DNA of 64,000 nt from NCBI RefSeq assembly GCF_033100135.1, contig NZ_CP136920.1:2289001-2353000 (forward strand), read 5' to 3'. Made by a program: the position numbers and the translations under genes. This DNA comes from Rubellicoccus peritrichatus. GTDB lineage: Bacteria > Verrucomicrobiota > Verrucomicrobiia > Opitutales > Cerasicoccaceae. The first letter of the stretch is position 1. Each line of letters opens with the position of its first letter. The notes beneath the pieces were generated by a model, which worked only from the letters and a program-made list of their open reading frames with translations, searched no databases and was not told the DNA's origin. Shown in pieces: positions 2-51,354 of this stretch.

Positions 2-1027
2 TTAAGCCCAGCCTGGCGTTATCCTTTTGATGCACGAAATCCTGTGCAGTCCAACCCGGTACAATTCCATTCGGCTATTTCTTCTTTCATTCAGAAGTCA
101 GGAGAGAAGCCGTTTTTCATTATGGCTAATGTGGCGGCGCCGCATCGTCCTTATCGCACGCATCTGAAACAGAACCCCGGCCAGGAACTGCCAGCGGCGG
201 ATACGATTGAAGTACCACCTTTCCTGCCTGATTTGCCTGGAGTGCGCCGTGATATGCAGGAGTATTATGCCTGTGTCGAAATCGCTGACGCATGTGCAGG
301 TGCCATTCTCGAAGCGCTTGAAGACTCAGGTGAACTCGATAATACTCTCGTCATCTTTACTTCTGATCAGGGAATGCCCATTCATCACGCCAAGGCCTCA
401 GCTTATCCGGCTGGTATTCAAATTCCTTTGGTTATTGCCGGGCCTGGAGTCAAGGGAGGGCGCGAAGTCGGGCTACCTGTTTCTCAAGTGGATTACGCTC
501 CAACGATACTCAATTACTGCAAAATTTCTGTGCCAGCCAACATGCAGGGACAAAGCCTTATGCCAGTGCTTGATGGAGGCGATTCTCTGCCGGGGCGCGA
601 GTATGTCTTTGCAGAGCACAACTCACATGGACCCGATCCACGCGAGTTTTTCCCTCAACGAGTAGTAACCGACGGCACGTGGTATTACATACTCAATCTT
701 GATCCGAGAAAGCCCCAGCGTTTGCCTGACGATTTGCGTGGGGTTGAGGTTTGGGGTAACTATGCTTATGCGGATATTCTTGCAGCGCAGGATACACATG
801 CTGAGCAAGCCCTGTTCCTGACTCAGTTTGACTCACCTCGTGCCAGGGAGCATCTTTATCGACTTGATCAAGATCCTTGGGGCGTAGACGATTTGGTAGG
901 TGATTCGATGGTTAGCAGTCAGTTGCGTAAGTTGCGCGAAGTTATGGAAAACTGGCGGCGCGAAACCAATGACATCAAACGAAGCCCTTTGGAGATACCA
1001 GAGCATGCGGTTACCGCAACGAATTGA
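2..1027 (+). CDS. Sulfatase, C-terminal part (5' end outside window)
   Basis: The reading frame is open to the left edge, so the start and the N-terminal half with the formylglycine site are not visible. A GTG at 44 is only an internal codon. The visible part has typical sulfatase core elements: a PFFIMANVAAPHRPY strand, then LVIFTSDQG, the second metal-binding strand, followed by a basic segment, and PLVIAGPG. The arrangement resembles the heparan N-sulfatase (SGSH-like) branch of the S1 family, which hydrolyses sulfate esters or sulfamates on glycans. The stop lies 15 bp before the next sulfatase on the same strand, so the two probably form an operon. The family is clear, the substrate is inference. 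Confidence 0.88.
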   Translation, partial: LSPAWRYPFDARNPVQSNPVQFHSAISSFIQKSGEKPFFIMANVAAPHRPYRTHLKQNPGQELPAADTIEVPPFLPDLPGVRRDMQEYYACVEIADACAGAILEALEDSGELDNTLVIFTSDQGMPIHHAKASAYPAGIQIPLVIAGPGVKGGREVGLPVSQVDYAPTILNYCKISVPANMQGQSLMPVLDGGDSLPGREYVFAEHNSHGPDPREFFPQRVVTDGTWYYILNLDPRKPQRLPDDLRGVEVWGNYAYADILAAQDTHAEQALFLTQFDSPRAREHLYRLDQDPWGVDDLVGDSMVSSQLRKLREVMENWRRETNDIKRSPLEIPEHAVTATN

Positions 1028-33777: not shown

Positions 33778-34231
33778 CAAAATGGAAATGCAGAGCATGT
33801 TTCGTAGTTCTCAGTTGCCAACAAAAAAGTGCATTTTTTCTCAAAGATCTCAAAAATTACTCCATTTACTCCTTCAGATGCCCAAGAAAATACACGGTGC
33901 GGAATTGAATTCCAGTGTCATTGATGGAAAAATCCTAATGGCATAGGGAGGATACTTCTTGAATCCAAATACTGGCTTCCGATGAGCCTCATCCTTTTTA
34001 CAAGCTCTTAACGGAAAAGCGCATACGTCTGGTGGAAAGGATTGACTCATGGTGCCTCAAATTCCATTTTAAGCGCCATTATTGGTATGTTCAGTAGTAT
34101 CTCGATTTTGCAAGTAAGCTATGTGTCTTCCCTTGGCGACTGGACGTTTCTGAATCTCTTAGGGCTCCCCAATGCCCATTGCTAATCTATCATTCATCTT
34201 ATCTTTGAAATTAATTTTTCCTCAAATTGTT
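33778..34231. other. Leader region of the giant gene
   Basis: 454 bp without a supported gene between tRNA-Thr and the giant gene. It must hold the giant gene's promoter. I see no strong hairpin, riboswitch-like pattern or LacI-type palindrome. The last 60 bp are open in the giant's frame, with an alternative start at 34172. Confidence 0.45.
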
Positions 34232-37200
34232 ATGAATCGACTCGAATTCCTCACTCGTAATCCCTTGTTACGAACTCTGCGTGCCGTAGCCTTGTTTGTG
34301 CCACTTTTTTTTACGGCTCATCAGATGAGTGCATTTACTCTGGAAATCATAGGGACACCAGATGATGAGACAGAAGCGATTCCTGGTTTTTTGATTACAG
34401 ATACAGTTCGTGTCGGTATTGATTTGTCTGATATAGTTGTAACGGTTCCTGTCGATTTGACGCTTACTTCTGGCGGGGGAATCTTTGATTTTAATTCAAC
34501 CACTCCTTCGTTGACTGAGACTCTCACCTTTCTTGGTTCAACTGAGGCGATCAATGCGATAAACAACAATAGCACGGGGATTGTCACCGTTGAAGGTGTG
34601 GATGCTGTTAATGCCACGGACTCAGTTCAGTTTTTTTATGGACTTGGCCAAACTTTAACTTTCGATGCCATTGAGAATGTCACTTTCACTCAATCAACGA
34701 CAAATGCTGGAAAAACCATCGTAGCATTAAATGCCAGCGTGGCTGAAGATGCACTTAATGCGACAATAACATTTACAGTGGAATCGTCCCCTCCGGGGGC
34801 TGGGGTCATCACTGATGCGAGTGGCAACCCAGATCCTTCTGGTGCCTTTGTGCGCATTGATAGTATTGGGACTATCGAAGTGACTGCAACATCCGCGAGG
34901 ACAGACGATTATTTATCTACGACAAGAACACAGACATTTGAAGTGGAGCCAGCTCCACAGTTCGTCGAATTTGTTCCAGTCGATGCAGTCAAATATGGAG
35001 AATATCCATTCACAGTTAAGGCTCGTGGTATTCAAACCAAAACCGGTATACCTGTCCCCACAGGTTCATCAGTCGTTCTTTCGATAACGAGTGGATCAGG
35101 CATCCTGGGGCCTCAGACAGTTGGTATCGATGGTTTCACGACCGCGGAAGTCACCGTGACTGGAGCGGGAGCCATATCGATTCAAGCATTGGCATCTGCT
35201 AACGGTAATTTTTCCAGCGCATCAGACGTTCAGACTGTTTCAGTTGAGGCAACAGAGACGTCAACTGGAGCATTGATTTTAGATCAGTGGGCATGGCGAA
35301 ATCCACAACCAACGCCCGATACCAACAGTTTCAATGATTTTGTTTTTGCTGATGATCTTTTTGTTGCAGTGGGAGATTCAGATGGAACTGATGCGAGTAT
35401 CCTGACTTCCAGCGATGGAGTCGTTTGGACTGATAGATCCGGACTTGTGAATCAGGACCTGCTCTCTGTTACCTATGGTGCAGGTACATTTGTCGCTGTT
35501 GGTAGTTCAGGAACAGTATTAAGCTCACTTGATGGTCTCACTTGGTCTACCGAAACATCAGGGACGGCAGAGGATTTGAATGGAGTTACCTATAATGCGT
35601 TCTCAAATACATTTGTTGCGGTTGGTGCCTCAAATACCATTATTACATCTCCTGACGGAATGACATGGAATTCTGCAACATCTGTTCCTGCTGCAATCGG
35701 AACCCTCAACGCAGTTGTTGCAAATGCCTCGGGTCGCTTAACTGCGGTTGGTGAGGATTCTGTCATTATATCAGACGACAATGGAGACACTTGGTCGATT
35801 CGACTGTTTGGCCTTTCGGTTGCTTTGAACGATGTCATTGTTGATAGCACATCAGGAGCATTTGTAGCAGTTGGAGATTTGAGTACTATACTCATTTCCG
35901 AATTGGGGAATACTTGGGGACTGGAATTTACTGGATCTAATTTCTCGCTGACCGGGATTTCAGAAGGCAACGGCTATTTTGTGGCGGTAGGCTCTGAGGG
36001 GAAACTGGTCACTTCTCCTGATCTTGAGACATGGACTCAGAGGACTTCTCGGTTCGAGATTGGATTTCAAGGAGTAGGTTTTGGCGGTGGTTCATTTGTA
36101 GCAGTTGGAGACGGCTTTACCGTTTTCTCATCCCCGATCGGAGAAGGGTGGACGCTGCGAGATTCTGGATTTGAAGATACGCTTGAGGATATCGCTTTCG
36201 GTAATAACCTATATGTTGCTGTTGGAACAGATGCCAAAATTCTGACATCTACGGATGGTATTGTATGGGAAGATAATGCTACATTGCCTGGTGGTTTTAG
36301 TGATGATCTGTATGGCGTTACCTTTGGTGGTGGCACCTTCGTCGCTGTTGGCTCAAGTGGGAGCATCTTGACATCTGCAGACGGACTCACCTGGGTGGAA
36401 GCACTGGACTCAGGCCTTGCTGCAGGCAGTGTATTACGGGATATAGTATTTAGTGATAACTTGTTTGTCGCAGTAGGTAGTGATTTTTCAATCCTTTCAT
36501 CGAGTGACGGTGATGATTGGGATGTGGTAACCTCAGGTGCTGGTAACAATTTCAATGCGGTAGCCGCGCAAAACGGCAGATTTGTGGCTGTTGGTGATGA
36601 TGGGGTAATTTATATTTCTGACGATGGAGCATCGTGGGGATTTCGCTTTTCTGGCACGAATAAGGATTTAGAAGGTGTTACATCTGATGGAGTCAGCTTT
36701 GTTGCCGTTGGCGATGAAGGGACTGTCTTGTTTTCCGGTTCAGGTGATTTGTGGACAGGGACGAATTCTGGTGTTGAAGTCGATATGATTGCTGTTGTCG
36801 CTTCACCCTCAGGTGTCTTTGCCGCAGTGGGAGAAGATTTCTCTATATTGACCTCGCGTAATGGTGTTGATTGGAGCTCACAGATTACCGGTTCCTTGAA
36901 TTCGCTTCGCGGTGTTGGTTTTGGCAATGATCTTTTCGTGGCAGTAGGAGATTTTGAGTCGATTCTCACTTCCTCGGATATAATCAGTTCAGGCCTTGAC
37001 AGTTGGTCGTTTGCAAACCCGGTTATAGATGGAACTACAGTTAACGATATGCTCTTCGCAGGTGGGCGTTTTGTTGCTGTTGGTGATGGTGGGTTGCTCC
37101 TTACGTCTGAAGATGGCCAAGTGTGGGCTGAAGTAGATTCGGGAACGACCAATAATTTGAATGCTGTTAGCTATGGTTCGAACACCTACATTGTCGTTGG

Positions 37201-40200
37201 TGAGAATGTTATTTTACGCTCAAATGATGGCGCCGAGAATTGGACAACTAATATCAATTGGCTTGTTGATTTTCAAGATGTGGAGTTTTCGGATGGTCGG
37301 TTTGTTACTGTTGGTCTTGGAGGAACCGGTCTTGTCAGTAGCAATTTAGGGTTGAACTGGAGTATCTTAGGTCTGGACATTCAGGATGCAGATATGTTTG
37401 GGCTGACTGTCGGTGGCGGATATTGGATCGCAGTTGGGGGGCCTTATGTTAACCCTCAAACTGGGAATATCGGCGTTATTTCAGAATCGGCTAGCATGTC
37501 TGCAATTACTATTTCAAAAGATGGTATTAATTGGACTAGGCGACTTTCTCCTTTAATTGTTTCAGGTGGGGTCAATTATTATGATAATATACTAAGAGAT
37601 GTTCAGTATGGGAACGGTATATTTTTGGCAGCTGGAGACAATCTAATCCTCAAGACTACGCCTGCAGAGCTCGATATGGCAGAGCCTATCGATACAATTG
37701 AATTTGATCCAATCTCTGGAGACGTTACACTTCTTATTCTGGGATCGAGATGGACTACGGAAGTTGTCGGCTTTTCAAGTTGGCAGTCTATTGCTTATGG
37801 TGAGCCCAGTGGCTCTCCAACTTTCGTGCTTGTTAACGATGTCGGAGGAGCATTTACCACCGAATCTGGCGATGACTATGTTGTGAGTTTTCCTGGAATT
37901 TCTGAAGGATTTACAGGGGTTGCTTTTGGTGATGGTGAGTTTATCGCCAGTGCCCAAAATGGCAGGATCTTATCGTCACCTGATGGAGATCGATGGACAG
38001 TTCGATCAACTGCCTTCCTGCAGCCCCTTAATGCTGTCAGCTCAACAGGTCCCGAATCTGTCGCCGTCGGTGACAATGGAATCATTTTTGTTTCAAATAC
38101 ACCAGGTACATGGACTGCTGCAACTGACTCAGAAGTATATCCTGTCAGCTTAAATGCCACAGTATATGGTAATGGGCGTCATGTTGCCGTTGGTGATAAT
38201 GGATGGTTGATGACATCCTCAGACGGTAATTCCTGGACGCCAAGGATATCGAATCTTTCAGATGATTTGCACGGCGTGACCTTTGGAGAAGGCACTCTAA
38301 CTAATGGAGGGGCGATAATTGAACGTTACGTGGCTGTTGGTGCCAATGGAGCTGTTGCTTTTTCCGCTGATGGTACTACATGGAATACTGTTACTGAAAG
38401 TGAAGAATTCAATGCCATTGCGAATGGCAATGGCACGTATGTCGCCGTTGGTGAAAATGCTTCGATACTAACGACCACTGATGGTGCCGTTTGGGCAGAT
38501 CCTGCGACTATACCAAGCAGTATCCAAGGAGCCCTCAATGGAGTCTCTTTTGGCAATGGGACTTTTGTTGCAGTGGGACAAGCTGGACAGATTACCTACT
38601 CTAATAACAATGGAGTAGATTGGAATGTGGCCGACTCGGGTCTCGTTAATGATCTTCAAGGCATTGTTTTTGGTGATGGTTTCTTTGTTGCGGTGGGCTT
38701 TGACGGATCAATTGTTACCTCGGCAGATGGTGTTGATTGGAGGCTTCGTCCTTCTGGTTCCAATAATTTGCTAAACGGCGTTGGTTTCAGAGAAGATACA
38801 TTCACTTCGGTTGGAACGTTCAGTACGATATTGGAGTCACAATTTGCCAATCGCTTAGAACAGGTAATCTCATTCAATCCAATCCCCAATCAGTCATTAG
38901 GGACAGGGCCCATTCCACTCTCTGCTGTTGCTTCCAGCGGATTGCCGATAACTTATTTTGTGGTAGCTGGCTCAGCATCGATTCAGAATGGAAACCAGCT
39001 TGTCTTGAGTGATTCTGCTACGATTCCTTTTAATGTAACGGTTCGTGCAACGCAGTCAGGTGATGATGAATTTGCCTCAGCGACCCCGGTTGATCAGACT
39101 TTTTCTGTTGTTAACCGACTACAGACAATCGACTTTCCTGCAATTAGCGATGTTACATTCCAAGATGTGACTGAGCTGTCTCTTGTTGCTGTTTCGCGGG
39201 ATGTACTAACCCTTCTTACGACAGGCCTTCCAATTACTTATGAGGTGTTGGTAGGGCCAGCAACTTTGTCGGATGCTGGTAATACCTTGATTATTACAGG
39301 AGCAGGTGAAGTCACTGTTCGTGCTTCTCAAGCTGGTGACGATATCTATGCTACTGCGGAATCAGTTAATCAGACTTTCACAATTGAAAAAGCAAATCAA
39401 GCTATAGCATTTCCTGAAATACCTGATCGTGGGGTGAATCAATTTCCATTTCTCCCGACAGCAACATCCTTCTTTGAAGAGCCAGGTGGCGGTATCACTG
39501 ACCAAGAGACTGGTTTGGATGTTGTATATTCGATTACTTCTGGAGCAGCAAAGATTGAAAATAACAGGGTCGTTTTAGACGGGGCAACTTCTGGCCAAAC
39601 AATTACGATTCAGGCAGATCAACCAGGGAGTAACAATTACAATGCTGCAACTTCTCAAACGCAGACGGTTATGCTGGTTGCTCAGACCCAAACCGTGTCA
39701 TGGACTAACGGTGATGTTGTAGAAATTGGATTGGTTGCTGGTACGGTTGAAGTTCCTGCCACTTCATCAGAGGGCACAGCGATTACATATTCCGTTGATC
39801 CATCAAGTGCTGCTTTTGCTGAGTTTGACGATCCGACTGATCCCACATTAACTTTGCTAGCAATTGGTTCTGCGCGGATTACGGCAACGGCGGCTGCTTC
39901 TGGTGGCGGTGCTCCTGAAGCTTCTGTCTCACAAACGATTGTTATTACTGGCGAGGCACAGACAATCACTTTTCCGGATATTTCTGATAAATTCATCACT
40001 GATCCAAAATTTATCCTGACTGCGTCTGCATCCAGTGGCCTTGATGTCGTCTATACGGTGACTGGCGGTTCAGATATCGTTTCAGTCAGTGGGAATGAAG
40101 TGACTATTTTGGGCACAGGTACTGGACGTGTTTCTATCGAAGCCTCTCAACCAGGTAATTCGCAATTCAATGCCGCGGTCCCAGTTACCCAGACTTTTGA

Positions 40201-43200
40201 AGTAGTCGATGCCGACCTTGGTGATTCATGGACGGAACAGAATACACCAGTCACTACTAACCTGACTCACAGTGGCTTTATCAATGAGTTGTTCTTCGCT
40301 GCCGGTGATGGCTCAACAATTTTGACGGCGACTGATGCCGTTGCTTGGACATCTCGTTCTGGCGGAAATAGTGCACTTCTTGACATTGCGGCTGGAGGAA
40401 CTCCTACTGTCTATGTTGCTGTTGGTGCCGATGGAATCCCCTTGAAATCAGCTGACGGAGTCAATTGGCAACTCATTACATCACCGATAGGCACTGCTCT
40501 AAATGCTGTTGTGTTTGCGGCGGGTAGATTTGTTGCCGTGGGTGAAGACGGCTTTATTGCAGTTTCTTTTGATGGAAGTGTATGGACCACAATTACAACC
40601 AACTTTACCGCAGATCTACGCGACATCATTTTTGTTGATGATCGTTTAATTGCGGTGGGCGAAAATACTGCCGCTGTCTCCAATGACTTTGGTCAATCCT
40701 GGTCATCAACGGTATTGTCATCATCTGAAGATTTCCAATTGAATTCCGTTACGGCGGGTGGCGGTTTGTTAATGGCTGTTGGCAATGGTTTCACTGTCAT
40801 AGTATCTTCTGATAACGGTGATAGCTGGTTGGGCCGATCAGGACCATCAGATGTTACAAATGATTTGAATGGGGTGGCATTTGGTGCTAATCGTTTTGTC
40901 GTTGTTGGCTCGGATGGAGCAATATACACGACGGATGATACTCTTTCCTGGGACGAACGCGCCTCTGGAACAACGCAGAACCTGAATGATGTTAACTTTG
41001 TCAGTGATATATTTGTTGCTGTGGGTAATGAAGGCACGATTTTGACCTCAGGTGGCCTCACTATTAGAGATACACAGAGGATTGAGTTTGATGAAATTAT
41101 TGCACCAGTCGATGGCTCTAGCACGACAACGCTGCATGCTCGCTCTATTGCTGGCTCAGGTGGCTTGAGTGGACTTGAGGTGCGTTTTGACATCATTGAA
41201 GGCGACGCAGTTATAAGTAACACTCAGTTGACAGCAGGAGATGAGACTACAGCAGTTTTGACGCTCGGCGATACACGGGGTGTCGTGGTTATCAGGGCGA
41301 GCCAGGCTGGCAATGACGATTTTTATGCCGCAGCAAACCAGGATCAGAGTATAACAATAATTGGAAGGGCTGAGTCTCCAGCCAACGCAATACTCACTGG
41401 TCCCGGGTTTATGGATTTGTGGACATGGAGAAATCCTTCGGAATCAACAACTGATTTTCTTAACGACATTGCAATTGGGCCAGCGAATGATCAAGTCGTT
41501 GCTGTTGGAACTCTGGGTAAGTTGATCTATTCGCCTGACGGTTCAGCGTGGACTGATGTCGACCTTAGCGGATTAACCACAGAAGACCTCAATGGCGTTA
41601 CGAGTAGCTCAACTACTTACGTTGCTGTTGGTGACTCGCAGACGATCATTTTATCTTCTGATGGAATCAATTGGGATGATACGGGCGTTGATGTTTCTTC
41701 AATACCCAACCTAAGTGACCTTCATTCGGTTGCGTATGGTTCAGGAAGTTTCATTGCCGTTGGAATTGATACAAGTGACAATGGTATCGCAATCACATCG
41801 CCAGATGGTTTGGTTTGGACCGAAGCGACTGCTTTCCCTACTACACCTCCATTAAACCGCATTACCTACAATGAATCGCTTGGCAAGTTTACAGTGGTCG
41901 GAGATATGGCGACATTGGTTAACTACGATGTTGGCTTAGATGTCTGGTCCTTGATTAGGACCGGTACAGGATTTATCGACTACAATGGGGTTGTCGCACT
42001 TGTTGATGGAACTTCCTATGTCGTTGGCGATAATGGAACCATCCTGGTCTCAACTGATTCAGATCTTCAAGTATGGACGAGCTTGTTCTCCGGGACTGAT
42101 TACGAATTAAGACAGATCGTAAACGGTAATGGAATGCTTGTTGCCGTTGGTGAAGATGGACGCGTCTTAACCGCACTGGAAAATGGCAATGAATTTTGGA
42201 CAGAGAGCGTTACCAGATTCCCGCTGGATATGTCAGGACTTGTTCTTTATGCCGATGGCTTCATTGCAGTTGGACAGAACTATTCAGTTCTTACGGGAAC
42301 ATCCGGACTTGACTGGACGATGGACTTTTCCTCGCAAAGGGGAGATCTCGAAGAGGTTGCCGGTAACGATGATGCCATTGTTTCGGTTGGTGAAGACGGG
42401 CGTATATTGCGTTCAACTGACAGTGGCGAAACGTGGGTCGTAACTACTTCGACGACAGCTGAAGACCTTAACGGCCTTGCAGTTAATGGGACTCAATTCA
42501 TTGCTGTTGGCGATAATGGTATTATCTTGTCATCTATTGATAGCGGTGCAACTTGGGCTGCCGTAAGTGTGACTGCACCTTTCTCTCCGGGTGGTTTTGA
42601 TTCAAATCTAAACGATATCATTTACGATAGTATTAATGGAGTATTTATTGCTGTAGGTGACGATTATTCGATCTTGGTGTCAAATGCCTCAGGGACTTCA
42701 TTTACTCAAACTTCCATCGGTGCGAACGATCTTAACGGTATTGGCTATTCTTCCACCAGCTATGTCATTGCTGGTGACGATGGCATTCTATTGACTTCTA
42801 CGAATGGGGTAGACTGGTTGGAGAAGACTTCTGGGACTGATAATGATCTTTATGATGTCGCATTTGGCGAAGGCCTGTATGTTGTTGTCGGTGATAACGG
42901 TAGGATTCTTACCTCCGAAACTGGAAATATCTGGGAAATCGAAATATCTTCTTTCACTGGAGACATTCGTGGCGTGACCCATGCAGATGGCGTCTTTGTT
43001 GCCGTCGGTCAGCAATTCACTTTCCTTGCCTCAGAGAATGGCAAAGACTGGCAATCTCAAGTCTCTGGAACTCTCAATTTCCTAAATGGGGTAGCAGAAG
43101 TTAATGGTCTTTTTGTTGCAGTTGGCGATTTCGATACAATTCTCACAGCTAATACAGTCATTCCAACGGGGCTGGATTTATGGAGCTTAAGAAATCCTGT

Positions 43201-46200
43201 TGCTGATGGTGATACAATAAATGATGTCGTTTATGGTAATGATTCATTTGTTGCGGTTGGAGATAATGGTAAGATTTTAACATCAACAGATGGGGAAAAT
43301 TGGATTTCTCGGGAGGTTATCGAGCTTAATGGAGATCCGTTGACTGAAAACCTCCAGGGGGTCGCCTATGGCAATGGCATTTACTTAGCGGTTGGTGGCC
43401 AGAAGCTTGTCTCTTCGAGTAATGCTATAAATTGGAATGTCATTACGACGTGGACTGTCCCCGTAAACAGTGTAACCTTTGGAGAAGGTCTGTTTGTCGT
43501 AACAGGCGATGAATCAAGTATCTTCTATTCATCTAATGGCCTCGATTGGGCCGGAGGTAGCGTTAATGGAGTTCATAATGCGGCACCATTGAATGATGCG
43601 GTTTATGATCCAGACATAGCAGTATGGGTTGTTGTCGGTGATGCGGCAGATTTTTTCATTTCTCCGGATGATCAGCCACTCATGTCACAACTGTTTGTTT
43701 CGTTTAACGGTTTTGATTGGACCCGAGTTCGCTCACCATTTTTAGAAGATGGATACTATGAAGGTAGTATGAATACCGTCTCAGTTGGTAATGGAGTATT
43801 TCGTGCTTATGGTGATGGTGGTCTTTTCTCGGCGAATGGTCTGAATTGGGCAGTCAGTTTCCGAGGTGGATTCAACGCCTTTGCTTCGCTTTATACTGTG
43901 GGTAACGGTCAGCCAGGTTTTATCTACGCAGGTGAAGCTGGCGCAATTGCTGGCCAGGATCCGAATTATATCAGTTATCCTGGCATATCCGATGCAATTA
44001 ATGGTCTCGCTTTTGGTGAAGGGACTTATGTTGCTGTTGGTGCTAATGGCCGAATTCTTAATTCAAATGATGGACGAAACTGGAGTGTCCGTTCGGCTCA
44101 GAATCTCAGTGCTCTGAATGGTCTTACTGTGAATTCCTCAGGCTTCTACGTCGCTGTAGGTGATGGTGGAACCGTCTACAGCAGTCCAGATTCCATTGCA
44201 TGGACAATCTCAACCGTTCCTGATGATAAACAGAACACGGCGTTTTTTGATGTCACATCAACTCCAACTCAGTTTGTTGCAGTTGGCGAAAATGGAAGTA
44301 TTATCACTTCTGTAGATGGTGATATCTGGGGTTCAACCACTGCGCCTGTCTTCGATGATCTTCTCGGAGTCACATATGGTCCAGCTGTACCAGATGATTT
44401 ATTGGTTGCAGTTGGGCGTAATGGTGCCGTGATACTCTCACTTGATGGGAGTTCATGGATCCGGCAAACCTCAGGTACGACTGAAGACCTTTATGATATT
44501 TCATTAGCCAATGATCTCTTTGTTGCTGTTGGTACAAATGGAACCGTAATAACCAGCCCCGATGGTGAGACATGGACTGATGTAAGTATCAGTGGTATCG
44601 GGCAAACCCTTATGGGAGTTGGTTATGGGCAAATTGATGGCATTGGTATATGGCTTGTTGCAGGTTCTGATGGTGTATTGTACGCTACAGATGATATTAC
44701 AAGTTCTGCCGCTTGGCAGCCTCTTGTATCAGGAACAATAAGCCCCTTGTTCGATGTTACATATGGTTCGGGTAATTTCTTTGTCTCGGGCGGTGATGGT
44801 ACTGTCATAACATCTAATGACCTTGATGATTGGTTTAGTCGTCCAACTAATACCGACTATAGTTTGAATGCGGTGGCATTCTTTAATGATATTTTCACCG
44901 TTGTCGGAGACTTTGGAACCATCATCACATCTGGAGATATTCCGATTAGAAGTGATCAATCCATCATATTCCTTCCAATTCCAGATCAAATAATCAGTAC
45001 TACCACAGTAATTGCAGAAGCTGCTGCAACCAGCGACTTGCCTGTCACATTTAGCATTATTGATGGTCCAGCCACGGTTTCTGGAAACGTAATTACGCTT
45101 CAAAACACGGTTGGAATTGTAACAGTCCAGGCAAGCCAAGCAGGTAGCATTCGTTTTAATCCAGCTGTTCCGCAATTGCGAACATTTGAGATCCGAGAAA
45201 ACGAACAGACTATAACCTTTTTGGGTGAGACTGGTTCGACGCCTCCAGGTAGCATTGATGAGAAAACATTTGGAGATGACCCATTTGAAGTTCGTGCAGT
45301 CACATCAGATACAAATCTCTTCCCGATTATTACAGTCGTCTCGGGACCTGCATCCATCAATAATCTTACAGAAGATCCTAATAATGGTGGCGTTGTAACT
45401 GCGGAAGTGACATTAATTGGTGCCGGGGAAGTGGTTCTTCAGGCCAGCCAGCCTGGTGATTCCACGACTAATCCCGCTGAACCTGTTCAAAGGTCTTTTG
45501 ATGTCGAAAAAGGCGCGCAGACGATTACTTTCCCTGGTGGTGGTCCTTACAGTGTGGGAGATCCTGCTGTTACGCTGGAGGCATCTTCTACTAGTGGTCT
45601 GACGATTTCTTATGAAGTCATAAGTGGTCCTGGTGATATCGTGAATGGTGATCAACTGGAATTCACTGCAAGCGGCCAGATTGTGGTTCAGGCAACACAG
45701 CCTGGTGATGATGATTATAATCCTGCTCAGCCCATAAGCCAGACATTCATTATTAATCCTGAACTGGTTGGTAATAACTGGACCGCTCAGTCAAGTGGTA
45801 CAACTGCAGCATTAAATGGAGTTAATATTGCGATTGATCGTTTCATTGCGAGTGGTGATGCCTCAACTTTGATATCTTCGTTGAGTGCAAATACCTGGAC
45901 CGTCCTGACTGGAGGAACGGGTGCCTTAAGGGGGCTTGCTGCTGGTGGTGATCCAACAATATATGTTGCAGTCGGAGATGATGGTGTTCCACTGACCTCA
46001 TCCAATGGGTTGGACTGGCAATCGATCGTGTCACCAGTTTCTGGTGTCTTGAATGACATTATTTTTGCTGATGGCCGTTTTATTGGGGTTGGTAATTCTG
46101 GTTTGGTCACAATTTCATTCGATGGACTTGAATGGAGCACAATTAGATCGGATGTGACGTCAGATTTGACGGGCATTGCATATAATGATGGAATTTTAGT

Positions 46201-49200
46201 GGCGGTTGGTGGAAACCAAATAGCTATTTCGGATGACTCGGGAGCAAATTGGACTGTTCGTACATTTAGCGATCAGGTTGAACTCAACTCTGTTGGCTAT
46301 GGCAACGGTATGTTTGTTGCTGTTGGTGATGCATTCCAGGTGTTAACTTCCTCTGATAGTGGTGTCAGTTGGAGTGTGCGCCCTGCCGCTGCCTCGAATG
46401 ACTTGAGAGATATTACCTTCGGAGCTAACCGCTTTATTGCCGTGGGCTCTCTCGGTGGAGTCTTCACATCATCAAATGCCATTGAGTGGATTGTTCGGGA
46501 TTCTGGCACGACCGATAACTTGAATGGCATCGCATTTATTGAAAATGTGTTCGTTATTGTGGGTGATTCCGGAACGGTTCTGAGTTCTGGTTTACCAACC
46601 ACTAAGAGTGGTCAGACAATTGATTTTGATACGATAAGTGATCCTGTGAATAATGTGACGACTCTCACTGCTACAGCGATTAGTGATGATACTAGTTCAC
46701 CAAGCCTGCAACCAGTGAGCTTTAACATCATCGAGGGACAGGGCACCATCACGAACGTTACGATGGATGCTTCAGGTGTTACGACTGGAACATTAACAGT
46801 ATCTGGTACGCCAGGCAATATCACTGTAAGAGCATCTCAAATGGGAGGTGAAAACTTCTATGTTGCTCTTAATGCTGACCAAACACTCTCAATTTCGGGT
46901 GATACTCAAAGCGTGGCAGATCTTTTGCCAGCAGAGGGAGAATTAGTATTCTCGACAGCTCCATACATTCTGTCTGCGAGCTCAGTCGATTCCTCAACGG
47001 ATCAACCGACCGGACTCGATGTGGATTTTGAGCTCGTTTCCGGTAGTGCTACTGTCAGCGACAACGTCTTAACACTCAATGCTGACTCTGTTGGAACTAA
47101 TGTTGTAGTTCGAGCATTTAACAGTGGAAACAGTACTTATGAGCCTCTTTCTCAAACAATTACTTACAACATTGTTGAAGAAACAGGGACCATCATCTTT
47201 GAGAAGATTGATAACAAACTCCTGACTGATGATGATTTCTTTATTATTGCCCGAACTTCCAACGGAGAGGATGTCAATATAAGGATTATAGAAGGTTCGG
47301 ATCTAATTTCTCTCAGAACCTTTGTTGAAGTCGATCTTGCAGGTAATCAAACTCTTCGTCATCAGGTTGGAATTAAGGGAACCGATGGAGCGACTGGTCT
47401 GGTCAGACTTGAGGCATTCACGACCTCAGCAAATTCTATCTCTGCGACACCAGTGACTGAGTCGTTTTTCATATCCCGGTTTACTCAGAACATTACATTT
47501 GGGGATGTCGGAACCAAGACCTTTGGAGATGGCGACTTTGATATAAATGCCACTGCTGACGGTGGTGGAGTTGTTACATTGGCCATCGCTGATACCACGG
47601 TAGCCACGCTTGATGGAACCACAGTGAGTATTCAGGCTGCAGGGGTTATAACCATCACAGCAACCGCTGCGGCATCATCGAATGGTGAGTATGGCCCTGC
47701 TGAAGCAGAGCTAATGATCACTGTAGCCAAAGCACCACAGGAACTTCAATTTGAGGCAATCGAAGACCAATTTGCTGTAGCTGGCACAATCGTTAATTTA
47801 CAGGCGCAAACATTCATCAATGGCGATGAGCAACCAGCCAGCCCGACTGAATTTCCAATTGTTTTCAGCATCGTTGTCGGTCAGGAACGTGCTACTATAT
47901 CCGGCAGTGTATTGACCTTAAATGGCACTCCCGGGACAGTCACAGTCCAGGCATTACAGGCAGGCAACGGTAATGTTGATACCGCTACTGCGATTCAGCG
48001 GACTTTTGCCGTTTCGACATTTGGCAAAGTGGAACTGAATCTCACAACCAGTATGAATGGTTCTGCCTTCGGTAATAATCGCCATGTTGCCGTCGGGCAA
48101 CAAGGTGCCGTCGCCCGTTCAATTATCAGCACGGATGATCCAACGCGCTGGCAGTTTGTTGCTAGCCCAACTTCAAATGACCTGACAGATGTCGCATTCG
48201 GAAATGACCGTTTTGTTGCGGTAGGTGGATTTGGAACAGCGCTGACATCCTCTGACGGAGCTGATTGGTCATCGTTCTCAGTTGGCCAACCGAACTTATT
48301 GAATGCGGTCGCATTTGGTGATGGTCAGTTTGTCACAGTCACTGCAGGAGGAATTGGTTTCAATTCAACGACCGGGCAGACATGGTCTCAATTTTCGATC
48401 CCAACACTGAATCCACTTAACGACGTTGCGTTTGGCCAGAGCAATGATGGTGGACCACAGTTTGTTGCGGTTGGTCCAACAGGGACAATTGTGACATCCA
48501 GCGATGGTAGCAATTGGACCTTACGAGATACTGGAACGCAGTTGACGCTCAATGGCGTGACCTATGGAGACGGCTTATTCGTTGTTGTTGCGGACAGCCG
48601 CACCTACTTGTTCTCGCAAAATGGAGGCGTTACCTGGCAGCGACGTGTGGTTCCACTTCAATTGATCAACGATGGTGTGGACTTGAATTCGATTAGCTTT
48701 GGGATTTCAACCTTCAGAGTTGTTGGGGCCGATGGTTTGGTACTAACCGCAACCACCGAAGCTATAATACAACCAACAAATCTAAACACTGGAGCGAGTA
48801 ACTGGGTGAAAGGCGTCTCACTGGGGACTGACGAACTACTCGATATCTCCTTTGGTGGTAACCGGTTTGTTACCGTTGGGGATGCCGGAACTATTCTTAT
48901 TTCGTTACCAGAGCTGTCGACAATCTTCTCAGCTGCATCCTCAGCGGGAGGCACGGTTATGTGGAGCGACTGGTTCGGCTTCTTTGACGAAGGCGTGGCT
49001 CCATGGATCTACCATTACTACATGGGATGGTTGTATGTTCTGGGAACGGAGAATAATATGTGGAGCTATTCGCCTACCTTTGGGTGGATATGGACTGCAG
49101 AAGGGACTTATCCTTGGTTTGTTCAAGGCGATACCGGAACTTGGTACTTGTATGCCGAAGATTCCGTCAATCCATCCCTGTTCTACAATTCGACAACACA

Positions 49201-49222
49201 GGAGTGGGAAGCATACAACTAA
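34232..49222 (+). CDS. Giant secreted protein: 77 propeller blades, Ig-like arrays, aromatic C-terminal domain
   Basis: About 4996 residues from the ATG at 34232, which starts a basic then hydrophobic export signal (NRLEFLTRNPLLRTLRAVALFVPLFF). A start at 34172 would add 20 residues. Most of the protein is a repeat of about 40 residues, FVAVGxxGxIxTSxDGxxW, the phrase of YCF48/BNR-type beta-propellers. By eye I count blades in groups of 14 (residues 350-923), 14 (924-1540), 7 (1996-2276), 14 (2393-2977), 14 (2978-3570), 7 (3848-4119) and 7 (4603-4891). Between them lie about 14 Ig-like MBG-type repeats opening QTITF and closing with QASQPGxxxFNPA. Residues 4909-4996 are a Trp/Tyr-rich domain. 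A surface or matrix adhesin is a guess. No catalytic motif is seen. Confidence 0.9.
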   Translation: MNRLEFLTRNPLLRTLRAVALFVPLFFTAHQMSAFTLEIIGTPDDETEAIPGFLITDTVRVGIDLSDIVVTVPVDLTLTSGGGIFDFNSTTPSLTETLTFLGSTEAINAINNNSTGIVTVEGVDAVNATDSVQFFYGLGQTLTFDAIENVTFTQSTTNAGKTIVALNASVAEDALNATITFTVESSPPGAGVITDASGNPDPSGAFVRIDSIGTIEVTATSARTDDYLSTTRTQTFEVEPAPQFVEFVPVDAVKYGEYPFTVKARGIQTKTGIPVPTGSSVVLSITSGSGILGPQTVGIDGFTTAEVTVTGAGAISIQALASANGNFSSASDVQTVSVEATETSTGALILDQWAWRNPQPTPDTNSFNDFVFADDLFVAVGDSDGTDASILTSSDGVVWTDRSGLVNQDLLSVTYGAGTFVAVGSSGTVLSSLDGLTWSTETSGTAEDLNGVTYNAFSNTFVAVGASNTIITSPDGMTWNSATSVPAAIGTLNAVVANASGRLTAVGEDSVIISDDNGDTWSIRLFGLSVALNDVIVDSTSGAFVAVGDLSTILISELGNTWGLEFTGSNFSLTGISEGNGYFVAVGSEGKLVTSPDLETWTQRTSRFEIGFQGVGFGGGSFVAVGDGFTVFSSPIGEGWTLRDSGFEDTLEDIAFGNNLYVAVGTDAKILTSTDGIVWEDNATLPGGFSDDLYGVTFGGGTFVAVGSSGSILTSADGLTWVEALDSGLAAGSVLRDIVFSDNLFVAVGSDFSILSSSDGDDWDVVTSGAGNNFNAVAAQNGRFVAVGDDGVIYISDDGASWGFRFSGTNKDLEGVTSDGVSFVAVGDEGTVLFSGSGDLWTGTNSGVEVDMIAVVASPSGVFAAVGEDFSILTSRNGVDWSSQITGSLNSLRGVGFGNDLFVAVGDFESILTSSDIISSGLDSWSFANPVIDGTTVNDMLFAGGRFVAVGDGGLLLTSEDGQVWAEVDSGTTNNLNAVSYGSNTYIVVGENVILRSNDGAENWTTNINWLVDFQDVEFSDGRFVTVGLGGTGLVSSNLGLNWSILGLDIQDADMFGLTVGGGYWIAVGGPYVNPQTGNIGVISESASMSAITISKDGINWTRRLSPLIVSGGVNYYDNILRDVQYGNGIFLAAGDNLILKTTPAELDMAEPIDTIEFDPISGDVTLLILGSRWTTEVVGFSSWQSIAYGEPSGSPTFVLVNDVGGAFTTESGDDYVVSFPGISEGFTGVAFGDGEFIASAQNGRILSSPDGDRWTVRSTAFLQPLNAVSSTGPESVAVGDNGIIFVSNTPGTWTAATDSEVYPVSLNATVYGNGRHVAVGDNGWLMTSSDGNSWTPRISNLSDDLHGVTFGEGTLTNGGAIIERYVAVGANGAVAFSADGTTWNTVTESEEFNAIANGNGTYVAVGENASILTTTDGAVWADPATIPSSIQGALNGVSFGNGTFVAVGQAGQITYSNNNGVDWNVADSGLVNDLQGIVFGDGFFVAVGFDGSIVTSADGVDWRLRPSGSNNLLNGVGFREDTFTSVGTFSTILESQFANRLEQVISFNPIPNQSLGTGPIPLSAVASSGLPITYFVVAGSASIQNGNQLVLSDSATIPFNVTVRATQSGDDEFASATPVDQTFSVVNRLQTIDFPAISDVTFQDVTELSLVAVSRDVLTLLTTGLPITYEVLVGPATLSDAGNTLIITGAGEVTVRASQAGDDIYATAESVNQTFTIEKANQAIAFPEIPDRGVNQFPFLPTATSFFEEPGGGITDQETGLDVVYSITSGAAKIENNRVVLDGATSGQTITIQADQPGSNNYNAATSQTQTVMLVAQTQTVSWTNGDVVEIGLVAGTVEVPATSSEGTAITYSVDPSSAAFAEFDDPTDPTLTLLAIGSARITATAAASGGGAPEASVSQTIVITGEAQTITFPDISDKFITDPKFILTASASSGLDVVYTVTGGSDIVSVSGNEVTILGTGTGRVSIEASQPGNSQFNAAVPVTQTFEVVDADLGDSWTEQNTPVTTNLTHSGFINELFFAAGDGSTILTATDAVAWTSRSGGNSALLDIAAGGTPTVYVAVGADGIPLKSADGVNWQLITSPIGTALNAVVFAAGRFVAVGEDGFIAVSFDGSVWTTITTNFTADLRDIIFVDDRLIAVGENTAAVSNDFGQSWSSTVLSSSEDFQLNSVTAGGGLLMAVGNGFTVIVSSDNGDSWLGRSGPSDVTNDLNGVAFGANRFVVVGSDGAIYTTDDTLSWDERASGTTQNLNDVNFVSDIFVAVGNEGTILTSGGLTIRDTQRIEFDEIIAPVDGSSTTTLHARSIAGSGGLSGLEVRFDIIEGDAVISNTQLTAGDETTAVLTLGDTRGVVVIRASQAGNDDFYAAANQDQSITIIGRAESPANAILTGPGFMDLWTWRNPSESTTDFLNDIAIGPANDQVVAVGTLGKLIYSPDGSAWTDVDLSGLTTEDLNGVTSSSTTYVAVGDSQTIILSSDGINWDDTGVDVSSIPNLSDLHSVAYGSGSFIAVGIDTSDNGIAITSPDGLVWTEATAFPTTPPLNRITYNESLGKFTVVGDMATLVNYDVGLDVWSLIRTGTGFIDYNGVVALVDGTSYVVGDNGTILVSTDSDLQVWTSLFSGTDYELRQIVNGNGMLVAVGEDGRVLTALENGNEFWTESVTRFPLDMSGLVLYADGFIAVGQNYSVLTGTSGLDWTMDFSSQRGDLEEVAGNDDAIVSVGEDGRILRSTDSGETWVVTTSTTAEDLNGLAVNGTQFIAVGDNGIILSSIDSGATWAAVSVTAPFSPGGFDSNLNDIIYDSINGVFIAVGDDYSILVSNASGTSFTQTSIGANDLNGIGYSSTSYVIAGDDGILLTSTNGVDWLEKTSGTDNDLYDVAFGEGLYVVVGDNGRILTSETGNIWEIEISSFTGDIRGVTHADGVFVAVGQQFTFLASENGKDWQSQVSGTLNFLNGVAEVNGLFVAVGDFDTILTANTVIPTGLDLWSLRNPVADGDTINDVVYGNDSFVAVGDNGKILTSTDGENWISREVIELNGDPLTENLQGVAYGNGIYLAVGGQKLVSSSNAINWNVITTWTVPVNSVTFGEGLFVVTGDESSIFYSSNGLDWAGGSVNGVHNAAPLNDAVYDPDIAVWVVVGDAADFFISPDDQPLMSQLFVSFNGFDWTRVRSPFLEDGYYEGSMNTVSVGNGVFRAYGDGGLFSANGLNWAVSFRGGFNAFASLYTVGNGQPGFIYAGEAGAIAGQDPNYISYPGISDAINGLAFGEGTYVAVGANGRILNSNDGRNWSVRSAQNLSALNGLTVNSSGFYVAVGDGGTVYSSPDSIAWTISTVPDDKQNTAFFDVTSTPTQFVAVGENGSIITSVDGDIWGSTTAPVFDDLLGVTYGPAVPDDLLVAVGRNGAVILSLDGSSWIRQTSGTTEDLYDISLANDLFVAVGTNGTVITSPDGETWTDVSISGIGQTLMGVGYGQIDGIGIWLVAGSDGVLYATDDITSSAAWQPLVSGTISPLFDVTYGSGNFFVSGGDGTVITSNDLDDWFSRPTNTDYSLNAVAFFNDIFTVVGDFGTIITSGDIPIRSDQSIIFLPIPDQIISTTTVIAEAAATSDLPVTFSIIDGPATVSGNVITLQNTVGIVTVQASQAGSIRFNPAVPQLRTFEIRENEQTITFLGETGSTPPGSIDEKTFGDDPFEVRAVTSDTNLFPIITVVSGPASINNLTEDPNNGGVVTAEVTLIGAGEVVLQASQPGDSTTNPAEPVQRSFDVEKGAQTITFPGGGPYSVGDPAVTLEASSTSGLTISYEVISGPGDIVNGDQLEFTASGQIVVQATQPGDDDYNPAQPISQTFIINPELVGNNWTAQSSGTTAALNGVNIAIDRFIASGDASTLISSLSANTWTVLTGGTGALRGLAAGGDPTIYVAVGDDGVPLTSSNGLDWQSIVSPVSGVLNDIIFADGRFIGVGNSGLVTISFDGLEWSTIRSDVTSDLTGIAYNDGILVAVGGNQIAISDDSGANWTVRTFSDQVELNSVGYGNGMFVAVGDAFQVLTSSDSGVSWSVRPAAASNDLRDITFGANRFIAVGSLGGVFTSSNAIEWIVRDSGTTDNLNGIAFIENVFVIVGDSGTVLSSGLPTTKSGQTIDFDTISDPVNNVTTLTATAISDDTSSPSLQPVSFNIIEGQGTITNVTMDASGVTTGTLTVSGTPGNITVRASQMGGENFYVALNADQTLSISGDTQSVADLLPAEGELVFSTAPYILSASSVDSSTDQPTGLDVDFELVSGSATVSDNVLTLNADSVGTNVVVRAFNSGNSTYEPLSQTITYNIVEETGTIIFEKIDNKLLTDDDFFIIARTSNGEDVNIRIIEGSDLISLRTFVEVDLAGNQTLRHQVGIKGTDGATGLVRLEAFTTSANSISATPVTESFFISRFTQNITFGDVGTKTFGDGDFDINATADGGGVVTLAIADTTVATLDGTTVSIQAAGVITITATAAASSNGEYGPAEAELMITVAKAPQELQFEAIEDQFAVAGTIVNLQAQTFINGDEQPASPTEFPIVFSIVVGQERATISGSVLTLNGTPGTVTVQALQAGNGNVDTATAIQRTFAVSTFGKVELNLTTSMNGSAFGNNRHVAVGQQGAVARSIISTDDPTRWQFVASPTSNDLTDVAFGNDRFVAVGGFGTALTSSDGADWSSFSVGQPNLLNAVAFGDGQFVTVTAGGIGFNSTTGQTWSQFSIPTLNPLNDVAFGQSNDGGPQFVAVGPTGTIVTSSDGSNWTLRDTGTQLTLNGVTYGDGLFVVVADSRTYLFSQNGGVTWQRRVVPLQLINDGVDLNSISFGISTFRVVGADGLVLTATTEAIIQPTNLNTGASNWVKGVSLGTDELLDISFGGNRFVTVGDAGTILISLPELSTIFSAASSAGGTVMWSDWFGFFDEGVAPWIYHYYMGWLYVLGTENNMWSYSPTFGWIWTAEGTYPWFVQGDTGTWYLYAEDSVNPSLFYNSTTQEWEAYN
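35281..41390 (+). repeat. Giant gene, duplicated unit 1
   Basis: Order: propeller pair A1 (14 blades, opens DQWAWRNP), pair A2 (14, opens DSWSFANPV), five Ig-like repeats (38860-40210), propeller B (7 blades, from 40219), one Ig-like repeat (41075-41370). The same order recurs in unit 2, and blades correspond one to one. For example, blade 14 of A1 (FVAVGDFESI) matches blade 14 of C1 (FVAVGDFDTI). Confidence 0.75.
41410..46905 (+). repeat. Giant gene, duplicated unit 2
   Basis: Order: C1 (14 blades, opens DLWTWRNP), C2 (14, opens DLWSLRNPV at 43166), three Ig-like repeats (44950-45765), propeller D (7 blades, from 45775), one Ig-like repeat corresponding to that after B. The odd sixth blade of A2 (SFPGISEGFTGVAFGDG) has its counterpart in the sixth blade of C2 (SYPGISDAINGLAFGEG), which fixes the register. 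The unit has fewer Ig-like repeats than unit 1. Confidence 0.75.
48040..48905 (+). repeat. Giant gene, final single propeller (E)
   Basis: Seven blades, from HVAVGQQGAVARS to FVTVGDAGTILIS, preceded by four additional Ig-like repeats (about 46910-48020). This propeller has no partner in the duplicated units and connects directly to the aromatic C-terminal domain. Confidence 0.7.
48958..49219 (+). other. Aromatic C-terminal domain of giant protein
   Basis: About 88 codons rich in Trp and Tyr: SDWFGFFDEGVAPWIYHYY, GWLYVLG, FGWIWTAEGTYPWF, TWYLYAED, LFYNSTTQEWEAY. It matches the domain at residues 40-132 of the secreted protein encoded at 24024-24824 in order and spacing of aromatic residues. 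Its position at the extreme C terminus suggests a sorting or anchoring role. Confidence 0.7.
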
Positions 49223-49243: not shown

Positions 49244-49281
49244 AAAGCGGCACATCCAGTCCTTGTATGTGCCGCTTTTTT
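49244..49281 (+). terminator. Strong intrinsic terminator after the giant gene
   Basis: A perfect 12-bp stem, AAAGCGGCACAT (49244-49255) with ATGTGCCGCTTT (49267-49278), has an 11-nt loop and runs into T residues. Confidence 0.92.
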
Positions 49282-49335: not shown

Positions 49336-49869
49336 ATGAGAGAAGTGAATGCCAGTGCCTACCCATCGTCTGTTGCTAAATGGGTTGAAGAGAGCCATCC
49401 TGTGGATCTGAATCGTGGTCAGGAAAATCCAGTCTATCGCGATGAGTTGCTTGGAATGAGTGCAGAGAGTGCCTTTGATGATTTGCCGATTAAAGACTCA
49501 TTCATGGCACAGGCTTGCCTGTCAGGACTTCTTTTGAAGTTTGATTTCCTTGATGAAAGTCATCGCATCAGCCAGGGCATTGATAACCCAACGGGCAGCT
49601 TTTGGCATGGAATAATGCACCGCCGTGAGCCTGACTATGGGAATGCCGCTTATTGGTTCCGCAATGTCGGCCAGCATCCGGTGTTGCAAGAGCTGGCGAT
49701 AGATGCAGCTGAGCTTGGAATGCAGGATTATGATCCGTTTGCATTTATTGATCGAGTTTCCGAAGTTTATGGTCGAGGTGATTCCGACGAGGCACTTTGT
49801 AAATCGATTCAAGAGCGTGAGTGGCAGCTCCTCTTTGAGTATTCTTTTAAGAAGGCAATTGGCCAATGA
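49336..49869 (+). CDS. Unknown protein coupled to formylglycine-generating enzyme
   Basis: 177 residues, no signal peptide or membrane segment. I do not recognise a family with a known function. The centre is strongly patterned and probably conserved (FWHGIMHRREPDYGNAAYWFRNVGQHPVL), with several His, Arg, Asp and Tyr residues that could form a metal or ligand site. The C terminus is helical. The gene ends with a 4-bp ATGA overlap with the FGE gene, so the two are translated together. A role in sulfatase maturation or in the same physiology is inferred from this coupling only. Confidence 0.72.
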   Translation: MREVNASAYPSSVAKWVEESHPVDLNRGQENPVYRDELLGMSAESAFDDLPIKDSFMAQACLSGLLLKFDFLDESHRISQGIDNPTGSFWHGIMHRREPDYGNAAYWFRNVGQHPVLQELAIDAAELGMQDYDPFAFIDRVSEVYGRGDSDEALCKSIQEREWQLLFEYSFKKAIGQ

Positions 49870-50931: not shown

Positions 50932-51354
50932 TTATGATTTCTTCAGGAAGGGGATCTGCTTGAAACGCAGTGCAAGGACCACGATACAGCTAATCAAAGT
51001 CACAACAGCCATACCGAAAAGAGTTCCTCCATCGCTTTGCCCATCGACAACGATTTCGATACCGAGCGGCCCCAGGTGAGCACCGATGGCTCCAAGCATC
51101 ACTCCGATGCCAAGCCCAGCTCCAGCCCAGCTGAAGCGCGGCCAGAGTAATAGGACTCCGGCAATCAGTTCGGCCACTGCCGAACCATATCGGCCTACGG
51201 GTTCTGCTCCTATAGTTGTGAATATGTAAATGCTCTCAGGTGCTCCAGTTAGTTTGAAGAAAAGCGTTTGCAGCATTATGACGGCTGCAATCACCTGGAA
51301 GATCCAACTGACAATAGTAGCTGGAGTGGATAGTTTGGCAGATTGTTGATTCAT
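50932..51354 (-). CDS. DoxX-family membrane protein
   Basis: A 140-residue protein with four hydrophobic segments. It follows the DoxX pattern: IFQVIAAVIMLQTLFFKLTGAPESIYIFTTIG near the N terminus, GRYGSAVAELIAGVLLLWPR in the second helix, GIGVMLGAIGAHLGPLGIE in the third. The family is a loose group of quinol-oxidase-subunit-like integral membrane proteins with unclear roles, some linked to redox stress. The C-terminal tail is basic (RFKQIPFLKKS). It is divergent from the YHS-domain gene. Confidence 0.85.
   Translation of the reverse strand: MNQQSAKLSTPATIVSWIFQVIAAVIMLQTLFFKLTGAPESIYIFTTIGAEPVGRYGSAVAELIAGVLLLWPRFSWAGAGLGIGVMLGAIGAHLGPLGIEIVVDGQSDGGTLFGMAVVTLISCIVVLALRFKQIPFLKKS

Follow-up and report, generated by a model that had tools for sequence, protein, structure and literature searches.

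A 77-blade protein of Rubellicoccus peritrichatus and the recurring order of its propeller blocks: a putative surface fibre

A single gene of the verrucomicrobial bacterium Rubellicoccus peritrichatus raises the question of how a chain with dozens of propeller blades is organized, how it arose, and what it may do. The gene lies in a stretch of 64,000 nucleotides (contig NZ_CP136920.1, positions 2,289,001 to 2,353,000), referred to here as the window, and occupies one uninterrupted frame of 5016 codons on the forward strand (34172-49222). Translation likely begins at the ATG at 34232, which is in frame with 34172, opens a signal peptide recognized by eye, and is also the start given in the preliminary description; a start at the ATG at 34172 would add 20 residues ahead of the plainer signal peptide. 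The product from 34232 has 4996 residues (519 kDa, pI 4.05), of which 0.62 percent are lysine and none is cysteine. Within the gene, no tandem repeat with a period of 500 or less was found in the DNA, and the blades are thus not a recent expansion; recent tandem expansion was rejected on this ground, and because the two copies of a 28-blade block (blocks 1-2 and 4-5 in Table 1) are 39 percent identical. An assembly artefact is also unlikely, given the lack of such repeats and a genome assembled as one contig of 5.8 Mb.

The blades were counted with an iterated profile built from the protein's own blades, which recovered 79 stretches, of which three were removed as non-blades (one at residue 1593 in a spacer array, and the header strands at residues 2015 and 3867), leaving 76. 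This profile scores the blade at residue 1207 only very weakly (E 0.41) and does not recover the one at residue 3238 at all; the latter was placed by an alignment to block 2 and two other genomes, in which it falls on the position of the blade at 1207. The profile and homology together give blocks of 14, 14, 7, 14, 14, 7, and 7 blades, or 77 in total, and a second profile with a count rule recovered 75 of the 77, missing just the two degenerate blades. The count of 77 made previously by eye, in the same seven groups, thus agrees with that of the profile as long as the two homologous weak blades are included, and on the same terms the number of blades in every block is divisible by seven. The earlier count had invoked a single degenerate blade, where there are in fact two (starting at 37784 and 43883), in homologous places in blocks 2 and 5. 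The proposed alternation of propellers and Ig-like arrays applies only in part, given that blocks 1 and 2, and blocks 4 and 5, join directly, with spacers lying elsewhere, while the aromatic domain described at the end of the protein was found as a C-terminal module. The Ig-like label of the spacers was assigned by eye, from the look of their sequence, and the best that Pfam offers for this label (Big_3_5, E 0.15) is below the cut-off. The hairpin motif of the Asp-box propellers, given as SxDxGxxW in the portion of PMC9218822 used here, is present in its full 8-letter form in 7 of the 77 blades, in the one-letter-shorter form SxDGxxW in 26, and in a looser 7-letter form in 47.

Table 1. Features of the giant gene and its 3' flank, in window coordinates.
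Feature	Position	Strand	Basis and remarks
Signal peptide	34232..34333	+	By eye: basic residues at the start, then a hydrophobic core, ending in M-S-A (MNRLEFLT...FFTAHQMSA)
N-terminal region, about three Ig-like domains	34334..35269	+	Motifs, by eye; no Pfam family at E 1
Block 1: header strand DQWAWRNP and 14 blades	35288..37006	+	Profile; predicted two seven-bladed rings
Block 2: header LDSWSFANP and 14 blades, with irregular blades 4-6	36998..38851	+	Profile, alignment
Degenerate blade 6 of block 2 (counted in the preliminary description)	37784..37909	+	E 0.41; aligns with 43883-43996
Spacer array, about five Ig-like domains	38852..40216	+	Four motif matches and one by eye; in Pfam only DUF6252, E 0.085, below cut-off
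Block 3: header DSWTEQN and 7 blades	40223..41071	+	Profile
One Ig-like domain	41072..41407	+	Motif, by eye
Block 4: header DLWTWRNP and 14 blades, counterpart of block 1	41414..43183	+	Profile, register
Block 5: header DLWSLRNP and 14 blades, counterpart of block 2	43175..44956	+	Profile, register
Degenerate blade 6 of block 5	43883..43996	+	Missed by profile, placed by homology
Spacer array, about three Ig-like domains	44957..45766	+	Motif; Big_3_5 E 0.15, below cut-off
Block 6: header NNWTAQS and 7 blades, counterpart of block 3	45773..46600	+	Profile, register
Spacer array, about five Ig-like domains	46607..48010	+	Motif, by eye; no Pfam family at E 1
Block 7: header FGKVELN (without W) and 7 blades	48011..48931	+	AlphaFold: one closed ring
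Aromatic C-terminal module	48962..49219	+	Also present in dozens of further frames of this genome
Terminator-like inverted repeat and T run	49244..49281	+	By eye; directly 3' of the giant gene

Two of the seven blocks were folded with AlphaFold, and for both of these, blocks 1 and 7, closed rings of four-stranded blades are predicted (AlphaFold, VIA), which supports the previous reading of the blades as seven-bladed propellers, with two rings in block 1 and one in block 7; by extension, blocks 2-6 would close in the same way. The model of block 1 (597 residues, from a 17-row alignment) has a mean pLDDT of 85.0 and a pTM of 0.69, and single-ring structures fit about 265-285 of its residues at 2.2-3.3 A in VIA. 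The ranges of these fits, which VIA gives as first and last residue only, are of two kinds. The chain 7bie_A covers model residues 20..302 (277 aligned, 2.7 A), the sole range of this type in 50 listed rows, while 2z2o_C covers 6..575 (276 aligned, 2.2 A), and most of the other single-ring ranges in these rows likewise start at 4-9 and end at 563-588. The simplest fit to both ranges places blades 1-7 in ring 1, and the header strand with blades 8-14 in ring 2. The blocks open with a W-bearing strand (in block 7, with F in its place), and a W of this kind is missing from the last blade, so that the block looks like two rings locked by its first strand. The 14-blade units therefore appear to be interlocked in the predicted model, as read from the ranges and not from coordinates, with a strand lying ahead of ring 1 closing ring 2. 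This W-bearing header is found in 15 of the 17 aligned 14-blade units, including seven of the nine from standalone proteins of other bacteria. In block 7, one ring extends from the header to the last blade, with 2z2o_C fitted to model residues 78..382 (276 aligned, 2.6 A, Z 31.8). The best whole-length Foldseek matches of block 1 include the double propellers 2ymu, GH74, OXG-RCBH, and AIP1. These whole-length matches have TM-scores of 0.26-0.45 and an rmsd of 15.8-26.8 A, which indicates that the rings match, but their mutual placement does not.

The order of the blades within the blocks provides a record of internal duplication. The register between the blocks was evaluated by comparing the mean pairwise blade scores in register with those of 20000 random orders. 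Blocks 1 and 4 score 68.3 in register (permuted mean 50.1; reached in 1 of 20000), blocks 2 and 5 score 58.5 (random 38.2; reached in 0 of 20000), and blocks 3 and 6 score 92.9 (random 49.0; reached in 2 of 20000). Blocks 6 and 7 are also in register (reached in 132 of 20000), and blocks 3 and 7 only weakly so (1043 of 20000). The two halves of block 1 match at an offset of seven (71.5; random 58.6; reached in 296 of 20000), and no sevenfold match was found between the halves of blocks 2, 4, or 5 (16364, 6787, and 18492 of 20000, respectively). Given these scores, the gene contains, twice over, a unit in which 28 blades and then 7 blades are each followed by a spacer, and block 1 retains the trace of an origin from two sevens. 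Pairing of individual blades between the two super-units is poor, with the positional counterpart being the best match in 11 of 35 and 12 of 35 cases, and only the block means are clear. The two copies of the 28-spacer-7 unit in the gene are long diverged.

The blades are not restricted to this gene. Strong blade matches are present in three other frames of the same genome (665, 702, and 1599 residues), and marginal ones, at E 1e-4, in a further two, of 563 and 893 residues. Blade matches at E 1e-20 were found in 10 of 36 near genomes, and at E 1e-40 in 28 of 372 genomes sampled in the order, the present genome being included in both counts. The loci were read from 15 of the 27 other genomes matching at E 1e-40, plus G001, G009, G011, and G022. 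The preliminary description had suggested a search for the same block order in other Opitutae, and among the loci read, the core order (28-blade block, spacer array, 7-blade block) does recur in six other genomes of the order. The block sizes of these relatives are profile matches completed by span and homology, and not one match per blade. On this basis, the giants of G002 (3109 residues), G030 (2875), and G076 (2868) are read as 28-7-7, with 42 blades each (profile totals of 37, 39, and 39), that of G029 (3271) as 28-7-7-7, with 49 (profile total 48), that of G011 (2053) as 28 plus about 7, with about 35 (profile total 30), and that of G061 (4675) as 28-28-7-7-7. The giant of G061 thus seems to reach 77 blades as well, in a different order and with 71 profile matches behind the count. 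Groups of apparently eight blades in the relatives were rejected, as they contained header strands. Two of the giants are in named records, JAUIHT010000001.1 (Verrucomicrobiia bacterium Co_bin.226; taken as G002) and DGMY01000085.1 (Opitutia bacterium UBA4506; taken as G030). The statement that no protein with this arrangement had been described still stands for the literature searched, in which no title or abstract among the matches listed refers to the architecture or the tail, and is qualified by the presence of the core order in six other genomes. The other large frames of the order (G032, G063, G077, and G348) contain only one to three groups of 7 or 14 blades. The frames L129 (G348:C13) and L126-L128 (G063, G077), of 3268 to 5520 residues, have one block of 13-14 blades amid other sequence.

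The pairwise identity of the 28-blade blocks is 31-48 percent among six sequences, and block 5 is 52 percent identical to G002 and 50 percent to G030. In the tree, copy B of the present genome groups with G002 (92/93), and then with G030 and G076, while the copy G061b groups with G029 (94/96), and copy A of the present genome with G011 on long branches (1.01 and 1.79). This last grouping implies either an old split between copies A and B, or a rapid change in copy A. A duplication of the 28-blade block private to the genus was not supported, given that the two copies group with different genomes, and the groupings indicate that the blocks were probably copied more than once. The final 7-blade block of the present genome, G002, G030, and G076 forms a separate class, and the branching of blocks 3 and 6 and of G002 in the 7-block tree is not settled. 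The neighbours of the gene in the window had no match in the flanks of G002, G030, G061, and G076, and the flanks of G029, G011, and G032 had one, two, and two matches, respectively, a weak or partial resemblance that includes a match at 59 percent in the flank of G011 to a small ORF near 50932-51354. Downstream of the giant gene, positions 49866-50876 (+) encode a formylglycine-generating-enzyme-like protein (FGE-sulfatase, E 3.4e-85), which had no counterpart beside the seven other giants compared.

Outside the order, the 14-blade unit is found on its own. A first scan of named genomes found nothing, and a second, with a 3-row alignment, recovered 23 loci, nine of which have a lone run of 12-14 blades (two cut by the contig end), in hosts including Cohnella, Delta- and Gammaproteobacteria, and Micrococcales MAGs, among others. 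The Cohnella protein ends in three SLH stretches (E 1.2e-36), SLH being a known wall anchor, and that of a Fibrobacterota MAG has a sub-threshold T9SS tail at its far end. Two of the lone proteins of 13-14 blades have further regions after the blades, which resemble a PETase/dienelactone hydrolase in L093 (JABTUJ010000003.1), and a peptidase C13 in L097 (JADGAU010000175.1). These standalone proteins resemble the giant in the run of 12-14 blades, mostly with a W..NP header, but have one unit with other tails or partners, whereas the giant combines four units with single rings. The 14-blade unit is an old and widespread module of bacteria, of which the giants are strings.

Among the known families, the best Pfam match to the blades is DUF6242 (PF19755), with E-values of 7.2e-19 and 5.4e-21 (68.9 and 75.9 bits, against a gathering cut-off of 29). 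This is a 217-position model of unknown function, of which the best blade stretches match only the last 60-odd positions, and its name was not found in the literature searched. The only PDB sequences reached by the blade profile are four Ycf48-like chains (5ojp, 2xbg, 5oj5, and 5ojr; best E 1.3e-15), and neither half of the giant matched a PSII_BNR or Ycf48 model (Pfam E 0.01, NCBIfam E 0.05). Ycf48/HCF136 (PSII_BNR, PF14870) has the same type of blade, but only one ring per protein, and acts in the assembly of photosystem II, whereas the giant has eleven rings, spacer arrays, and a terminal module; its blades would be relatives, rather than members, of the Ycf48 family. The proteins AIP1, GH74/OXG-RCBH, and 2ymu share with block 1 the two seven-bladed rings per chain, but they have only these two rings, with 12-14 percent identity, a different mutual placement (TM about 0.4), and other functions. 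Strings of propellers with spacers on the cell surface are also known in LRP1/LRP2, which have eight six-bladed YWTD rings, and in the archaeal propeller-PKD surface proteins, with YVTN rings; LRP2 is among the fold matches of block 1.

The aromatic module at the end of the giant, of about 85 residues, is a more widespread element. The last 92 residues of the giant have 41 matches in the genome as a single sequence, and 56 as a profile. In 30 carriers that were fetched, the module is C-terminal in 23, within about 60 residues of the start in six, and about 50 residues before the end in one. One carrier is a multicopper oxidase, another a cyclophilin, and a third a DUF4465 protein. In a crude signal-peptide test, 18 of 22 carriers passed, as did 12 of 25 control ORFs. 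The module is present in 11 of the 36 near genomes, seven of them with 12 to 56 matches. A phylum-wide sample of 387 genomes (E 1e-15, with no more than 13 candidates scored in each) yielded 5 with the module, every one of them from this order. The 28-blade giants of the present genome, G002, G011, G029, and G061, where the genome has 12-56 matches, carry the tail, and those of G030 and G076, where it has none, do not. A rule by which the tail occurs where the genome holds at least 12 copies fits all seven giants, of which only the first five are informative. Given that G010, G027, and G035 have many tails and no blade match at E 1e-20, the tail and the giant are separable. The copy in the window matched no Pfam family at E 1 and no NCBIfam family, and over 28 members of the tail family, no Pfam model fitted, the best being OCRE (E 0.0051, in 3 of 28). 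No known anchor domain was thus found in the tail by Pfam or, for the window copy, NCBIfam, and the best PDB sequence match (E 0.088) was disregarded. The module is not confidently folded, with a pLDDT under 50 over residues 380-452 of the block 7 model, and is read here as a module by which the cell addresses or anchors proteins, rather than a part of the propeller function. The giants and paralogues without the tail (L078, L079, L081, L083, and L125) appear by eye to have in common a C-terminal pattern of the SxDLxxW ... FxR type, which is perhaps an alternative terminal module.

Taken together, the gene would probably encode a single exported surface fibre, with propeller heads, Ig-like spacers, and a lineage-specific tail anchor, and this bead chain is the best of the readings considered, although we infer its export, surface location, and binding role, as well as the anchoring role of its tail. 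The signal peptide would export a single fibre of about 519 kDa, in which eleven seven-bladed propellers would act as binding heads, arranged in four interlocked pairs (blocks 1, 2, 4, and 5) and three single rings (blocks 3, 6, and 7). About seventeen Ig-like domains would serve as spacers, holding the propellers off the cell, while the aromatic module would either attach the chain to the cell surface or hand it to the export or anchoring route of the lineage. The propellers may then grip a polymer, a surface, or another cell through many weak contacts. The evidence counted for the fibre is the number and register of the blades, the fold of block 1, the W-bearing headers, the conservation of the 28-blade block and of block 5, the SLH domains in Cohnella, the mostly C-terminal position of the tail in its carriers, the tail rule, and a composition with no cysteine, little lysine, and an acidic pI. 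Counted against it are the low whole-length fold scores, the low confidence of the fold of the aromatic module, the rate at which control ORFs passed the signal-peptide test, the scarcity of neighbouring genes in common with the other giants, and the separability of tail and giant. No export partner for a protein of this size across the outer membrane was found, SprA (PF14349) being the sole candidate looked for; it had no match in the 36 genomes, but the control genomes gave none either. In six sequences of the 28-blade block, with gap cells left out, ring 3 is the most conserved (46.3 percent, against 35.9, 41.4, and 43.8 percent in the others), but gapped columns are also most numerous there (79 of 369), and its irregular blades 18 and 19 are poorly conserved (34.5 and 31.2 percent). 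The conservation of ring 3 may suggest a specific site, a weak argument from sequence, and this ring would be the first candidate place for a binding site.

The same modular repetition and spacer arrays would also suit a matrix or coat polymer, a sheath or S-layer-like cover in which the propellers pack against each other with no foreign target. The SLH domains of a distant 14-blade relative, and the amplification of blocks in G061 (28-28-7-7-7), as in a building material tuned in length, point in the same direction. This alternative is nevertheless rather unlikely, given that a lattice would favour near-identical rings, whereas these have diverged to 39 percent identity between the copies of the 28-blade block, and that the conservation of ring 3, for what this weak argument is worth, points to a specific site instead.

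A protein that works on polysaccharides, with one or more of its rings acting as GH74- or sialidase-type hydrolases, or as carbohydrate-binding domains in the degradation of polymers, seems improbable. Over the whole length, the top fold matches do include the double seven-bladed GH74 and OXG-RCBH, but also non-enzymes, the WD-repeat proteins and AIP1; the NCBIfam model "F510_1955 family glycosylhydrolase" reaches 89.4 bits, where its cut-off is 175, and no invariant acidic pair was seen by eye outside the blade motif in the six 28-blade blocks. A periplasmic assembly factor or chaperone acting on envelope proteins, in the manner of Ycf48 or the BamI of the Bacteroidota, is very improbable: no PDB sequences other than the Ycf48-like chains were reached by the profile, and BamI_Bacteroidota scores 55.5 bits, but the cut-off of this model is 370 bits, and the size, spacer arrays, and exchangeable tail of the giant are unlike a compact chaperone.

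The surface fibre may also belong, more tentatively, to a class of modular giants, in which interlocked double propellers form an interchangeable kit of 28- and 7-blade blocks, shuffled and amplified separately in several lineages (28-7-28-7-7 in the window gene, and 28-28-7-7-7 in G061, for example), and addressed to the surface by an undescribed, clade-restricted aromatic module common to dozens of exported proteins. A giant protein with carbohydrate-binding domains is described in the PVC group, in the available portion of PMC12057145, where the word "propeller" does not appear.

The 77 blades are the largest count in one chain in the literature searched. The highest in the portion of PMC9218822 used here is 47, in a NACHT protein of Penicillium camemberti, from a set chosen for near-identical blades only, with no reliable model; the giant likewise has many blades, but these are diverged, and arranged in sevens. 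Given that its blades have diverged enough to be aligned block by block, the boundaries of the rings are unusually clear, and it becomes testable how long the rings of a propeller chain stay in register as the chain undergoes duplication, and what makes blocks of 7 and 28 the recurring units. The tail, which matches no Pfam family and is found dozens of times in a genome, is a candidate signal for addressing proteins to the surface in one group of Verrucomicrobiota, and the family may deserve a study of its own.

Other carriers of the aromatic module have it in different positions. A second protein of the window (24024-24824, +) has the module right behind its signal peptide (C1:2313150-2313401, E 1.5e-12). 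Elsewhere in the genome, three adjoining frames of 527-538 residues (G000:C1 839669-843214, L034, with a match at 841309, L031) also contain it, and the two of these frames that were fetched have the module at the N-terminus, with a haem-like CxxCH motif close to the C-terminal end.
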